From: a virus
DNA length: 21,694 nt
Reading direction: 5' to 3' (one strand)
Virus record (IMG/VR): IMGVR_UViG_3300030419_001957
Span: 1 to 21,694 of that record
Shown: positions 2,369 to 19,733 of the stretch, in pieces
Layout: every line of letters starts with the position of its first letter
Position numbering within the stretch: position 1 is the first letter of the stretch
Notes under the pieces: generated by a model
What the model was told of the DNA's origin: nothing
Seen by the model: the letters and a program-made list of their open reading frames with translations, nothing else
Database searches by the model: none
Position numbers and translations under genes: made by a program

Positions 2369-2482
2369 TTATTGCTTTTCGTGCCAACTAGGACAACCAT
2401 CATCGGTGCATTGTTTTTCCTTATGATGGTCGGTTGTTGAATAAATTGCTATTGCAATTATGATTGCTGCTATAAGATTCAT
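2369..2482 (-). CDS. 37-aa single-pass membrane peptide with two cysteines
   Basis: This short gene ends the leftward operon. Its ATG overlaps the stop of the upstream gene by one base (TAATG), a translational-coupling junction. The 37 residues start MNLIAAIIIAIAIYSTTDHH: a 14-residue hydrophobic helix, too short to be confident of full membrane spanning, followed by a polar tail with two histidines and two cysteines (CTDDGC) and a Trp near the end. It could be a small membrane anchor, an uncleaved signal-like peptide or a holin-like accessory. Function is unknown. The coupling junction, hydrophobic start and operon position support it as real. Confidence 0.6.
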   Translation of the reverse strand: MNLIAAIIIAIAIYSTTDHHKEKQCTDDGCPSWHEKQ

Positions 2483-2805
2483 TATTCTAACTCTCCAATT
2501 CCGATAGTATTATCATCTATCATTTGTTGAGTAGGACCACTAGGTGTATAATGGTCTTGTGATAATTGTATAATCGCATAATGAATAACTTTTAATAGGT
2601 CTTTTTTATTGCGACCTTCTTTTTTGCCGTATCGTTGAGCATACTTTAATATATTGCCCATACAGAAACCAGTTCCGTGTCCTTGGTCAATAATTATTTC
2701 AGTTGCTTGTTTAGTAGATTTGGCATAATGTGATGAATATGTTTCATCAATATATTTTTTAATATCATTTAATATTTCATTTTCTTTAAATTTATAATCA
2801 ATCAT
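2482..2805 (-). CDS. DUF3310-like small phage protein
   Basis: The gene encodes 107 residues. The central part (about 35-85) has the pattern of the DUF3310 family: a histidine-containing helix, then GFCMGNILKYAQRYGKK, then KKDLLKVIHYAIIQLSQDH. The family is common in phages, often annotated as nucleotide kinase without biochemical proof. The start overlaps the preceding gene by 8 nt, so coupling is likely. A charged helical N-terminus precedes the family core. Cytoplasmic; no membrane segment. The family assignment is from memory of the motif, and a profile search would settle it. Confidence 0.75.
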   Translation of the reverse strand: MIDYKFKENEILNDIKKYIDETYSSHYAKSTKQATEIIIDQGHGTGFCMGNILKYAQRYGKKEGRNKKDLLKVIHYAIIQLSQDHYTPSGPTQQMIDDNTIGIGELE

Positions 2806-3025
2806 AATGTATATGGTCCTTTCCTTTTTTTACTATGTATCTAGGCATAGAATCTTTTTTTGGTTTATTAGTTTTTGTTTCTTTTTCTTTAAACGGTTTA
2901 TTTAATTCGTTTCTTTTTACTTTAGCAGATTTTTTATCTTTAAATCCTTCTTCTACAATTTTATTTGTTTTACTATCTACAACTGCAAATAGATTTTGGG
3001 GTGTTTCTGTTAAATTTACTGGCAT
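2798..3025 (-). CDS. Conserved T4-like marine phage hypothetical protein
   Basis: This 75-residue protein has an N-terminal beta-type core (NLFAVVDSKTNKIVEEGFKD), then a lysine-rich region (KKSAKVKRNELN, KEKETKTNKPKK), then a short C-terminal strand (RYIVKKGKDHIH). I recall similar short proteins in T4-like cyanophages, but no function is known to me. GAGGA lies 6 nt before the ATG. The gene overlaps its neighbours on both sides (10 nt upstream, 8 nt downstream), as is usual in this operon. Confidence 0.75.
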   Translation of the reverse strand: MPVNLTETPQNLFAVVDSKTNKIVEEGFKDKKSAKVKRNELNKPFKEKETKTNKPKKDSMPRYIVKKGKDHIHYD

Positions 3026-3189
3026 TGTTTCCTCATTTTTTCTTTTTCTTCTATTTCTTTTAAAGCTTGCAAATCGTCTATAGCGTCATATCCATTTCCA
3101 TCTTGGCATTTATCAATTATATTTTGTATAACATCTATTTTGTTTGTAAAGCCGTTTATATAAATGTCTAGTTCTAAATTATTTTCCAT
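3016..3189 (-). CDS. 57-aa acidic helical protein
   Basis: This small gene fills an otherwise empty stretch of the leftward operon. The 57 residues begin MENNLELDIYINGFTNKIDV and end in a charged helix (ALKEIEEKEKMRKQC). The ATG overlaps the end of the upstream gene by 11 nt, and its TAA lies 10 nt inside the downstream gene, in different frames. A purine-rich AGAGGA is placed about 5 nt before the ATG. There is no membrane segment. Likely a soluble two-helix protein; function unknown. Support comes from the good ribosome site, exact fit between neighbours and the absence of another gene here. Confidence 0.7.
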   Translation of the reverse strand: MENNLELDIYINGFTNKIDVIQNIIDKCQDGNGYDAIDDLQALKEIEEKEKMRKQCQ

Positions 3190-3442
3190 TATTATCCTCT
3201 CTCTTTATTTGTCCAAAATATGCCCAATGCATATTGCCGTTTTGGTCAAAGGTAACATCTTCGTATGTTATCGAACCTGAATAGTTTAAACTTAAATCTA
3301 ATTCTTTTACACTTGGACCATTTTCCCCAGCAGGGTCGGTTTCTGCATTTGTTGAAATATTAATATCTGTAATTATACCATCCCTTAAAAGAGGATTAAA
3401 TCCTCTTTTAATTTCCACTTTATCACCTACTTTAATTATCAT
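3179..3442 (-). CDS. Hypothetical protein with KVGDKVEIKRG beta-barrel start
   Basis: The protein starts MIIKVGDKVEIKRGFNPLLR and is 87 residues long. The GDKVEIKRG strand followed by GIITDINIS resembles small SH3-like or KOW-type beta-barrels, and the rest is also strand-rich and acidic. I chose this ATG because it overlaps the stop of the 25-aa gene upstream (ATGA). A longer reading from a TTG at 3496 would add 18 residues with no ribosome site. Its partner at 3516-3785 has a similar barrel pattern, so the two may be related or act together. Function unknown. Confidence 0.75.
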   Translation of the reverse strand: MIIKVGDKVEIKRGFNPLLRDGIITDINISTNAETDPAGENGPSVKELDLSLNYSGSITYEDVTFDQNGNMHWAYFGQIKREDNNGK

Positions 3443-3516
3443 CTCGTTAATAACCATACCGTTGATACAATGCAATACATAATTACTGCAATACAATATA
3501 AAATATCATAACTCAT
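3439..3516 (-). CDS. 25-aa transmembrane peptide coupled at both ends
   Basis: This is a 26-codon reading frame whose ATG overlaps the upstream stop by one base (TAATG) and whose TGA overlaps the next start (ATGA). It therefore bridges two genes with no spare bases. The product is almost wholly hydrophobic after the first few residues (LYCIAVIMYCIVSTVWLL at 6-23) and ends in Thr-Arg, so a single membrane helix with a positive end is expected. Two cysteines lie eight residues apart (8 and 15). No Shine-Dalgarno is evident, so expression would depend on coupling. It could be a membrane effector of host takeover or superinfection exclusion. No function can be assigned. Confidence 0.6.
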   Translation of the reverse strand: MSYDILYCIAVIMYCIVSTVWLLTR

Positions 3517-3785
3517 TAGGCAGCCTCTAATAGAGTCATTGATACTTTCCATTGTCCCATTGTATCAGTTGAAACAATAGCAGTTTTCATATTAATTTTA
3601 CTAATTACACCTTTTACAAGTCCTCTACGACCTGAAAATTGAACCTTTTGGCCAATATGTAATTTTGAACCAGCATTCATACTTAATTCACTTCTACGAT
3701 TTTTAATCATACTAACAACAGCATTGATTTCATCATTATTCAACAATGAAATTTTTTTATTAATAGACACTAAAATATTACTCAT
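3516..3785 (-). CDS. Hypothetical protein with C-terminal SH3-like barrel
   Basis: The 89 residues divide into an N-terminal helical part (1-36, SLLNNDEINAVVSMIKNRRSE) and a C-terminal beta part with IGQKVQFSGRRGLVKGVISK, then INMKTAIVSTDTMGQWKV. The second part looks like the small SH3-like or KOW barrels common in T4-like cyanophage hypothetical proteins. AAAGGA lies about 11 nt upstream of the ATG. The stop overlaps the start of the 25-aa membrane peptide. No catalytic motif is visible. Nucleic-acid or protein binding is plausible from the fold only. Confidence 0.75.
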   Translation of the reverse strand: MSNILVSINKKISLLNNDEINAVVSMIKNRRSELSMNAGSKLHIGQKVQFSGRRGLVKGVISKINMKTAIVSTDTMGQWKVSMTLLEAA

Positions 3786-3805
3786 AATATAAATTTTCCT
3801 TTCAA

Positions 3806-4018
3806 TTAAACTTGTCTTAAATTAATACCGCCGATGGAATCAACAAATTCCTCGGCGTCATCAGCATTATTAATACCTTCAAGGTATAATGCTTCATCTG
3901 AATTTTGCATTTTTGCAAGTGCTTCAGATTTAGTTAAGATACCTTTTTCGATATCCAATTGGATATTTTCTAAAAATTTAGAGGCACTATCCCACGCCAT
4001 ATTTTTCACTTTACCCAT
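3806..4018 (-). CDS. Small acidic hypothetical protein
   Basis: The predicted protein is 70 residues (MGKVKNMAWDSASKFLENIQ onwards), with a helical middle (DIEKGILTKSEALAKM) and an acidic C-terminal half (NNADDAEEFVDSIGG). I chose the ATG at 4018: the AAGGAG at 4029-4034 lies 10 nt before it but only 1 nt before the earlier in-frame ATG at 4027. With this start the gene begins just after the stop of the upstream gene instead of overlapping it. No recognisable domain or membrane segment. Confidence 0.7.
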   Translation of the reverse strand: MGKVKNMAWDSASKFLENIQLDIEKGILTKSEALAKMQNSDEALYLEGINNADDAEEFVDSIGGINLRQV

Positions 4019-4019
4019 A

Positions 4020-4256
4020 TTATACATTCTCCTTTACAAAATGGTAAAAATCAAAGTCATTTGTCGGTGACACTACAACTTTGTTTTCTAAATTACTTCT
4101 TAAATATGATTCTTTAGAAAAAACACAATCTATTGAATCGGTTTGTATCAATTTATTAATAAGAACATCAATTTTACAATTCACAATATTATTAGTATGT
4201 GGATTTTTTTGAATATTCATTAAATCTTTGATTATTTGGCTTTTTTCGATTTTCAT
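4020..4256 (-). CDS. Hypothetical protein behind second early promoter
   Basis: The 78-residue product is mostly helical (MKIEKSQIIKDLMN, IDVLINKLIQ) with a beta-like C-terminus (KVVVSPTNDFDFYHF). I do not recognise it. There is no Shine-Dalgarno before the ATG. Instead a sigma-70-like -10 hexamer ends 6 nt upstream, so the predicted transcription start falls on the start codon and the message would be leaderless. The last codons contain the AAGGAG used by the next gene. Confidence 0.7.
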   Translation of the reverse strand: MKIEKSQIIKDLMNIQKNPHTNNIVNCKIDVLINKLIQTDSIDCVFSKESYLRSNLENKVVVSPTNDFDFYHFVKENV

Positions 4257-4262
4257 ACTTAT

Positions 4263-4290
4263 AGTATATACTATTTGGGGTCGATTGCAA
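4263..4290 (-). promoter_or_regulatory. Internal sigma-70-like promoter with palindromic -10 region
   Basis: On the minus strand TTGCAA (4285-4290) is followed by 16 bp and TATACT (4263-4268), with the ATG at 4256. The -10 region lies in a perfect 14-bp palindrome, ATAGTATATACTAT (4261-4274). The -35 lies inside an inverted repeat, CGATT (4282-4286) with AATCG (4295-4299). These symmetrical sites could be operators or incidental AT-rich sequence. Confidence 0.6.
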
Positions 4291-4306
4291 GCGAAATCGG
4301 ACTTAA

Positions 4307-4404
4307 AAAACCCTTATTTTCTGCGAAATATCCATTTTTTTCCAATTATTCCAGAAAACCCTTATTTTCTGCGATTTTTAGAGAAAAACCCTTATTTTAT
4401 GCGA
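4307..4404 (-). repeat. Three 20-bp direct repeats upstream of internal promoter
   Basis: The plus-strand unit AAAACCCTTATTTTCTGCGA occurs at 4307-4326 and 4355-4374, and with one mismatch at 4385-4404. Gaps are 28 and 10 bp. The last copy abuts the stop codon of the gene at 4405. Together with the promoter just downstream (minus-strand sense) they fill the 148-bp gap between the first two leftward genes. They may bind a regulator or act as iterons. Confidence 0.85.
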
Positions 4405-4644
4405 CTAATTTATTGTATTTTTCGGCATTTCGCCCAAAAAATGACTATGTTTTCCGTCATTTATCGAATCGATGGCAGTTTCCAATATTTTCGTTGCACC
4501 TTCTTCGCCTAATTTTATCACATAACAATCCACAACGGTTTTTAGAACCATTGCCAACGATTGTAAACCGTGATTCGGGTATTTTGCCAAAAGATTAATT
4601 AAATCTGTTTGGGTTTCTATCATTATTTTTGTATCTTCATCCAT
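4405..4644 (-). CDS. First gene of leftward operon, hypothetical
   Basis: The protein is 79 residues and mainly helical: an acidic start (MDEDTKIMIETQTDLINLLA), then SLAMVLKTVVDCYVIKLGEEGATKILETAI, then a polar tail. No family is recognised and no membrane helix is convincing. The first ATG has no ribosome site. The consensus sigma-70 promoter just upstream places the transcription start within a base of this ATG, so the message is probably leaderless. An alternative start at Met8 also lacks a Shine-Dalgarno. As the promoter-proximal gene of a host-polymerase-driven operon it is likely expressed very early. Confidence 0.7.
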   Translation of the reverse strand: MDEDTKIMIETQTDLINLLAKYPNHGLQSLAMVLKTVVDCYVIKLGEEGATKILETAIDSINDGKHSHFLGEMPKNTIN

Positions 4645-4650
4645 AATACT

Positions 4651-4679
4651 ATTATACTATATTTTAAGGCGGCTGTCAA
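4651..4679 (-). promoter_or_regulatory. Perfect-consensus sigma-70 early promoter
   Basis: On the minus strand TTGACA (4674-4679) is followed by 17 bp and TATAAT (4651-4656), a full consensus match at the optimal spacing. It should be recognised directly by unmodified host RNA polymerase. The predicted start is at 4644-4645, at the first base of the ATG. It drives the leftward ten-gene operon. Confidence 0.9.
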
Positions 4680-4684
4680 CCCTT

Positions 4685-4692
4685 TATAAATA
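4685..4692 (+). promoter_or_regulatory. T4-type late promoter before nuclease gene
   Basis: Exact TATAAATA, followed by G. With the T4 late element at -13 to -6, the predicted start is 4698, which is the A of the nuclease ATG. There is no Shine-Dalgarno. It lies 5 bp behind the -35 of the divergent early promoter. Confidence 0.85.
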
Positions 4693-4697
4693 GTTCT

Positions 4698-5135
4698 ATG
4701 TATGAATATAGAGTAAAAATCTTAAAAGTAGTTGATGGAGATACCGTGGATGTTGATATTGACCTAGGATTCGGAGTTTGGTTAAGAAATGAAAGAGTCC
4801 GAATTATGGGTATAGATACTCCGGAGTCCAGAACAAGAGATTTAATAGAAAAGAAATTTGGATTAGCGTCAAAAGCACGATTAACAGAATTATTAGGTTC
4901 CGATGCTATTCTGAAAACCCAAGTGTCAAAAAGTGGTGAAGATATGAAAGGTAAATTTGGTCGTATTCTTGGTGATTTTAAGACTAATGATGGTCGCAAA
5001 TGTGCTGAAGTTCTTTGTGAAGAAGGTCACGCTGTTCCATATTTTGGTGGCAGTAAAGATGATGTTCAAGCTAAACATATGTCAAATAGACAAAATTTAG
5101 TAAAACAAGGAGTTGTGGAAGGACCTATTGAATAA
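4698..5135 (+). CDS. Staphylococcal-nuclease-like (thermonuclease) protein
   Basis: This 145-residue protein has the SNase OB-fold and should cleave DNA or RNA phosphodiester bonds with calcium. Motifs: VVDGDTVDVDIDLG (D13, D15), RVRIMGIDTPES (R35, D40, T41, E43) and GKFGRILGDF (R89). These correspond to staphylococcal nuclease D21, R35, D40, T41, E43 and R87, so the active site is complete. The C-terminus carries the family's usual small helical part (AEVLCEEGHAVPYFGG). There is no signal peptide, so it acts in the infected cell or virion. Related genes occur in T4-like marine phages. No Shine-Dalgarno is present, and the late promoter 5 bp upstream suggests a leaderless message. Likely roles are host-DNA or RNA degradation or DNA processing late in infection; the choice is inference. 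Confidence 0.92.
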   Translation: MYEYRVKILKVVDGDTVDVDIDLGFGVWLRNERVRIMGIDTPESRTRDLIEKKFGLASKARLTELLGSDAILKTQVSKSGEDMKGKFGRILGDFKTNDGRKCAEVLCEEGHAVPYFGGSKDDVQAKHMSNRQNLVKQGVVEGPIE

Positions 5136-5818: not shown

Positions 5819-5826
5819 TATAAATA
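5819..5826 (+). promoter_or_regulatory. T4-type late promoter before gp25
   Basis: Exact TATAAATA followed by G, 18 nt before the gp25 ATG. The predicted start is about 5832, leaving a short leader with AGGGAGA as ribosome site. It likely drives gp25, gp6 and the gp7-like gene. Confidence 0.85.
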
Positions 5827-11153: not shown

Positions 11154-11172
11154 TATAAATAGTTTATAAATA
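11154..11172 (+). promoter_or_regulatory. Tandem T4-type late promoters before gp8
   Basis: Two exact TATAAATA octamers, at 11154-11161 and 11165-11172, lie 11 bp apart, about one helical turn. Predicted starts are about 11167 and 11178. The second falls inside AAGGAG (11175-11180), so only the first transcript would keep the whole Shine-Dalgarno. The gp8 ATG is 37 nt beyond that AAGGAG. Confidence 0.85.
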
Positions 11173-19725: not shown

Positions 19726-19733
19726 TATAAATA
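19726..19733 (+). promoter_or_regulatory. T4-type late promoter before fibre-associated gene
   Basis: Exact TATAAATA followed by G, 20 nt before the ATG at 19754. A partial second element, AATAAATA, follows at 19736-19743. AAGGAG is the ribosome site. Confidence 0.85.

Follow-up and report, generated by a model that had tools for sequence, protein, structure and literature searches.

The window analysed here, an IMG/VR record taken at its full length of 21,694 bases, is a fragment of a marine T4-like phage genome without gp55 in the window. Comparison with PHROGs places a gp25-like gene, a gp6-like gene and further baseplate genes on the plus strand, and a block of small genes on the minus strand extends from 2482 to 4644. 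The early block of the minus strand and the late baseplate block of the plus strand meet at a short junction delimited by the start codons at 4644 and 4698 (Table 1). The first gene of the baseplate block encodes a nuclease, as indicated by matches of its product to PF00565 (E 2.5e-9) and to the endonuclease family phrog_452 (E 3e-30). On the far side of the early block, the plus strand carries a phage-encoded glutamine synthetase (44-1072; PF00120 and PF03951), an enzyme whose gene, glnA, is said to be missing from phage Melnitz and from its OM43 host (PMC9004378), and a Gram-negative porin (1424-2308; PF13609) with its own Shine-Dalgarno (SD) sequence and a strong terminator-like hairpin downstream (2331-2352).

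Table 1. Promoter elements and genes of the junction, with the other sites of the window used for comparison.
Feature	Coordinates	Strand	Remarks
Early sigma-70 promoter, TTGACA-17-TATAAT	4651..4679	-	12/12 consensus match; predicted +1 at 4644
T4-type late element, TATAAATA	4685..4692	+	exact octamer; predicted +1 at 4698
Early 79-aa ORF, ATG 4644	4405..4644	-	predicted leaderless
Staphylococcal-nuclease-fold endonuclease gene, 145 aa, ATG 4698	4698..5135	+	predicted leaderless
Second early promoter-like site, TTGCAA-16-TATACT	4263..4290	-	ATG 4256 lies 6 nt on
Second early ORF, 78 aa, ATG 4256	4020..4256	-	predicted leaderless
Late element, gp25-like baseplate wedge gene downstream	5819..5826	+	18-nt spacing, SD present; contrast site
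Tandem pair of TATAAATA, 11 nt apart, baseplate wedge gene 11218 downstream	11154..11172	+	leader-type contrast site
Late element, ORF 19754 downstream	19726..19733	+	20-nt spacing, SD present; contrast site

Read along the minus strand, the junction consists of TTGACA (4679-4674), a 17-nt spacer, TATAAT (4656-4651), the hexanucleotide AGTATT and the ATG of the early ORF; along the plus strand, the late octamer is followed by GTTCT and the ATG of the nuclease gene. Exactly 5 bp (4680-4684) separate the sigma-70 promoter from the late octamer. This arrangement bears out what the first-pass annotation, made from the sequence alone, had described, namely a perfect sigma-70 promoter and an exact late element on opposite strands, 5 bp apart, serving two genes that both lack an SD sequence. 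Indeed, no SD is found at either ATG, the upstream bases being occupied by the promoters themselves. Elsewhere in the window, start codons are mostly preceded by SD-like leaders, with the exception of the minus-strand ATG at 4256, whose site repeats the leaderless layout of the ATG at 4644 and has a homologous counterpart in L003 (TATAGT-ATAGTC-ATG). The window has five copies of TATAAATA, each on the plus strand and just upstream of a gene.

In T4 late promoters, the octamer spans positions -13 to -6 (PMC1524935), a geometry that would place the late +1 on the A of the ATG at 4698. The usual sigma-70 spacing, with 7 nt from the -10 element, would likewise place the early +1 on the A of the ATG at 4644, the two predicted start points being 54 bp apart. 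Furthermore, both messages begin with 30 nt that are predicted to be unstructured, a feature that leaderless initiation would favour.

Relatives of the locus were collected by searches with the nuclease, which gave 80 relatives, and with the 79-aa early protein, which gave 34 loci, and by a pattern search for an alternative early product, a structured RNA, which returned 31 contigs. Among 78 relative loci, the divergent pair is present at 51 distinct sites, which are homologous through shared descent, so that their count is not independent evidence. The sigma-70 spacer is 17 nt long in 50 of the 51 sites, and the gap between the promoters measures 5 bp in 38 of them, with differing gap bases; gaps of 6-14 bp also occur. 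The bases between and around the two elements have diverged among relatives, and the pair is kept with protein and RNA early products alike. The divergent promoter pair is a conserved junction.

On the late side, the octamer is exactly 5 nt from the start codon in the clade of the window (the window, L001, L003, L094 and L098) and in L088-L090. Within these leaderless relatives the bases of the 5-nt spacer vary (GTTCT, GTTTT or GTCAT), and L089 has a GTG start. In most other relatives, the same late promoter is followed by a leader of 26-43 nt, usually with an SD of the AAGGA type. The start codon of the nuclease aligns with that of its homologs, and those whose start at this codon is served by an SD share the conserved N-terminus. 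In a tree of the nuclease, the leaderless state occurs in three separate groups, with the reservation that L088-L090 sit on a very long branch and their placement is unsure. Their nuclease is very divergent (branch of 2.1), yet the promoter pair and the 5-nt leaderless spacing are kept; a gene replacement behind a kept promoter is possible in this group. The octamer TATAAATA is also found 5-6 nt before the ATG of other small genes (L138:1006 +, L145:7051 -, L092:4604 - and L113:4421 -).

The same spacing was examined across genomes. In nine T4-like records, we measured how far TATAAATA lies from the ATG of an ORF of at least 60 aa: 13 of the 132 sites lie at exactly 5 nt and none at 6-7 or 9-15 nt, after which come spacings of 16-43 nt, mostly with an SD. 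Seven control octamers gave no spike at 5 nt. A broader count was made with duplicates removed, any first base allowed and distances of 0-15 nt considered. In HTVC008M, Melnitz, C48C1 and environmental relatives, 27 of 41 distances are exactly 5 nt, without an SD (P about 5e-23, a value overstated by a uniform null that assumes unrelated sites), as against 1 of 11 in T4, RB49, Syn9, S-PM2 and S-TIM5. The held-out cultured Pelagibacter phage Mosig has 6 of 11 distances at 5 nt (P 2e-5, overstated under the same uniform null), and the cyanophage ACG-2014a none of three. Starts of this class match the public annotation for the DNA end protector of Mosig (106670) and for gp25 of HTVC008M (31132). 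The genes concerned encode the DNA end protector, baseplate wedge, baseplate initiator or fibre, tape measure, tube cap and portal proteins, and are late by function. Homologs of gp55 are encoded in HTVC008M, Melnitz, G013, G014 and C48C1.

Given the spike and the controls, there is little doubt that the fixed-spacing class is real, and a spacing of 5 nt is what the T4 start rule would predict for a message beginning on its AUG. We predict that leaderless late mRNAs form a recurrent class in T4-like phages of marine heterotrophs. Such a class is apparently undescribed: our literature search, with subscription papers outside its coverage, found no report of leaderless late messages as a class in T4-like phages, and no published 5'-end map for the source phage or any relative. 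A transcriptome paper on pelagiphages covers HTVC022P and HTVC027P, and the word promoter does not occur in its text. Comparison lends good support to the earlier proposal that each message starts on or near its ATG, both starts being predicted ones. The first-pass annotation had also called two leaderless messages in so short a space striking; the word suits the divergent pair, and is too strong for the late side, where leaderlessness appears as a class in such phages.

The early ORF belongs to a family of 79-82 aa, whose homologs align at about 25% identity and which has neither a Pfam nor a PHROGs match. Substitutions amount to 777/535/1373 at codon positions 1/2/3, a pattern indicating that the ORF is under coding constraint. 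In all 34 loci of this family, 5-8 nt separate the -10 element from the ATG, too short a distance to hold an SD. A general enrichment of leaderless starts on the early side was considered and rejected: counted genome-wide in the reference phages, such starts at strong sigma-70 promoters number 1-4 in each genome, a figure that scrambled controls also reach. The layout is conserved at the junction locus.

Our preferred reading, to which we assign a probability of roughly 0.8, includes the late class described above and runs as follows. Host polymerase with sigma-70 would start the leftward early message on the A of the ATG at 4644, and polymerase carrying a phage gp55-type sigma would start the late nuclease message on the A of the ATG at 4698, this transcript continuing into the baseplate genes, each of which has its own SD. 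Both leaderless mRNAs would be translated through recognition of their 5'-terminal AUG and not through SD pairing. The late side would be one member of a leaderless class of the SAR11/OM43 type, with the form [N]ATAAATA-N5-ATG. If this class is borne out, core virion genes would be translated without SD sequences, and the rule would serve to locate both late promoters and gene starts in such phages, whose hosts are among the most abundant bacteria of the sea. A stronger version, improbable in our view, is that SAR11/OM43-type phages run a dedicated leaderless late programme in which gp55 promoters start the messages of core virion genes on their AUG. Late messages would in that case be translated by another route than the early operons with their SDs, and a late shift in the translation apparatus of the host may favour this route.

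Several other explanations of the junction deserve consideration. AT-rich DNA may produce hexamers and octamers by accident, and the copy number of TATAAATA in the window is no higher than in shuffles (5 found vs 3.85 expected); since the octamer is not enriched by itself, it is conservation that carries the argument. By chance, 0.01 perfect sigma-70 sites would be expected per window and 0.08 copies of TATAAATA-N5-ATG in this one, and conservation together with the genome-wide spacing test constitutes the main, and strong, evidence against chance. With the pair kept across its relatives and the exact spacing recurring in independent genomes, an accidental origin has a negligible probability and was rejected. 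Another reading holds that neither message is leaderless, the nuclease mRNA starting further upstream or the gene further downstream. The spacing between a -10 element and its +1 may indeed shift by a base or two, but no good plus-strand promoter lies upstream (the best, at 4236, matches 9/12), the DNA before the nuclease gene lies antisense to the early genes, and the porin gene is followed by the terminator-like hairpin at 2331. The N-terminal conservation of the nuclease speaks against this reading as well, and we hold it to be unlikely.

Greater weight is due to two readings concerned with why the promoters lie so close. One of them invokes compaction only: in a compact genome the leader was lost, and the overlap serves no purpose in itself. 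Leader loss may well describe the state of the window, as the same late promoter is followed by a long SD leader in most relatives, and streamlined types of phage and host have been described (PMC9004378). However, loss of a leader would be expected to yield varied short spacings rather than exactly 5 nt both within the clade and across other gene families; the exact spacing implies a constraint holding the ATG at +1, even if this state first arose by compaction. Compaction as the sole explanation is credible, at somewhat less than an even chance. The other reading is the built-in switch put forward in the first-pass annotation, in which the overlap itself is selected and the late polymerase displaces the sigma-70 polymerase, ending transcription of the early block, or the reverse. 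With the two predicted start points so close, the footprints of the bound polymerases must overlap, and binding of one should preclude that of the other. The persistence of the pair in relatives, largely at an unchanged gap despite differing gap bases and with either kind of early product, would be expected of such a device. Against it, shared descent of the sites explains much of this persistence, wider gaps do exist, early infection offers no gp55, and T4-like phages can end early transcription by other means; moreover, compact divergent promoters exclude each other, selected or not. An early/late switch is a sterically plausible hypothesis, and selection for it appears doubtful to us.

Neither T4 late promoters nor leaderless mRNAs are new in themselves. 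The gp55/gp33/gp45-dependent late promoters of T4 share with the sites described here the octamer, the predicted geometry and the placement at late and virion genes. T4 and RB49 differ in that no TATAAATA stands 5 nt before an ATG, their leaders being at least 16 nt long and mostly provided with an SD. The predicted messages resemble the leaderless mRNAs of bacteria and phages by a predicted 5' end on the start codon, the absence of an SD and an unstructured 5' end; unlike these, the class found here would be tied to a phage late sigma, and it has a fixed 5-nt spacer and recurs across core structural genes. In RB49 and S-PM2, overlapping early and late promoters have been reported, with a proposed middle mode (PMC2984593). 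Early and late promoters also share one short region there, but they point in the same direction and serve the same genes, whereas those of the window diverge and serve different blocks. The closest likeness is to HTVC008M, Mosig and the methylophage Melnitz, T4-like marine phages that share the ATAAATA-N5-ATG class. For Melnitz, 15 late promoters have been listed (PMC9004378), and in pelagimyophages late promoters were not found with methods made for cyanophages (PMC7029224); in the texts searched, neither analysis reports a leaderless class.

In other relatives (L122-L152, L032, L034, L036, L040, L044 and L052), the same early promoter precedes an RNA of ~76 nt with two covarying hairpins (e.g. 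L127:4312-4339), and early genes usually come next. All 240 of the 240 cells of its 15 pairs are paired, with 10 pairs changing on both sides, and the RNA has an invariant TGATGGAGACGGA loop and a GGACGCA linker. A search of Rfam with this RNA gave no family, the sole match being a chance snoRNA below threshold, and its model has no match in the window or in the searched stretches of HTVC008M, Melnitz and Mosig. Its location at the very start of the early transcript is reminiscent of antiterminator RNAs such as put of HK022, to which it may be analogous. Two further repeats were noticed around early genes: in the window, three copies of GCA[GT]AAAATAAGGGTTTT lie between the first two early genes (4300-4410, minus strand), and stretches resembling AAATAAGGGTTTTT are found repeatedly close to early promoters, in relatives as well as in Mosig (L255:1420-1440).
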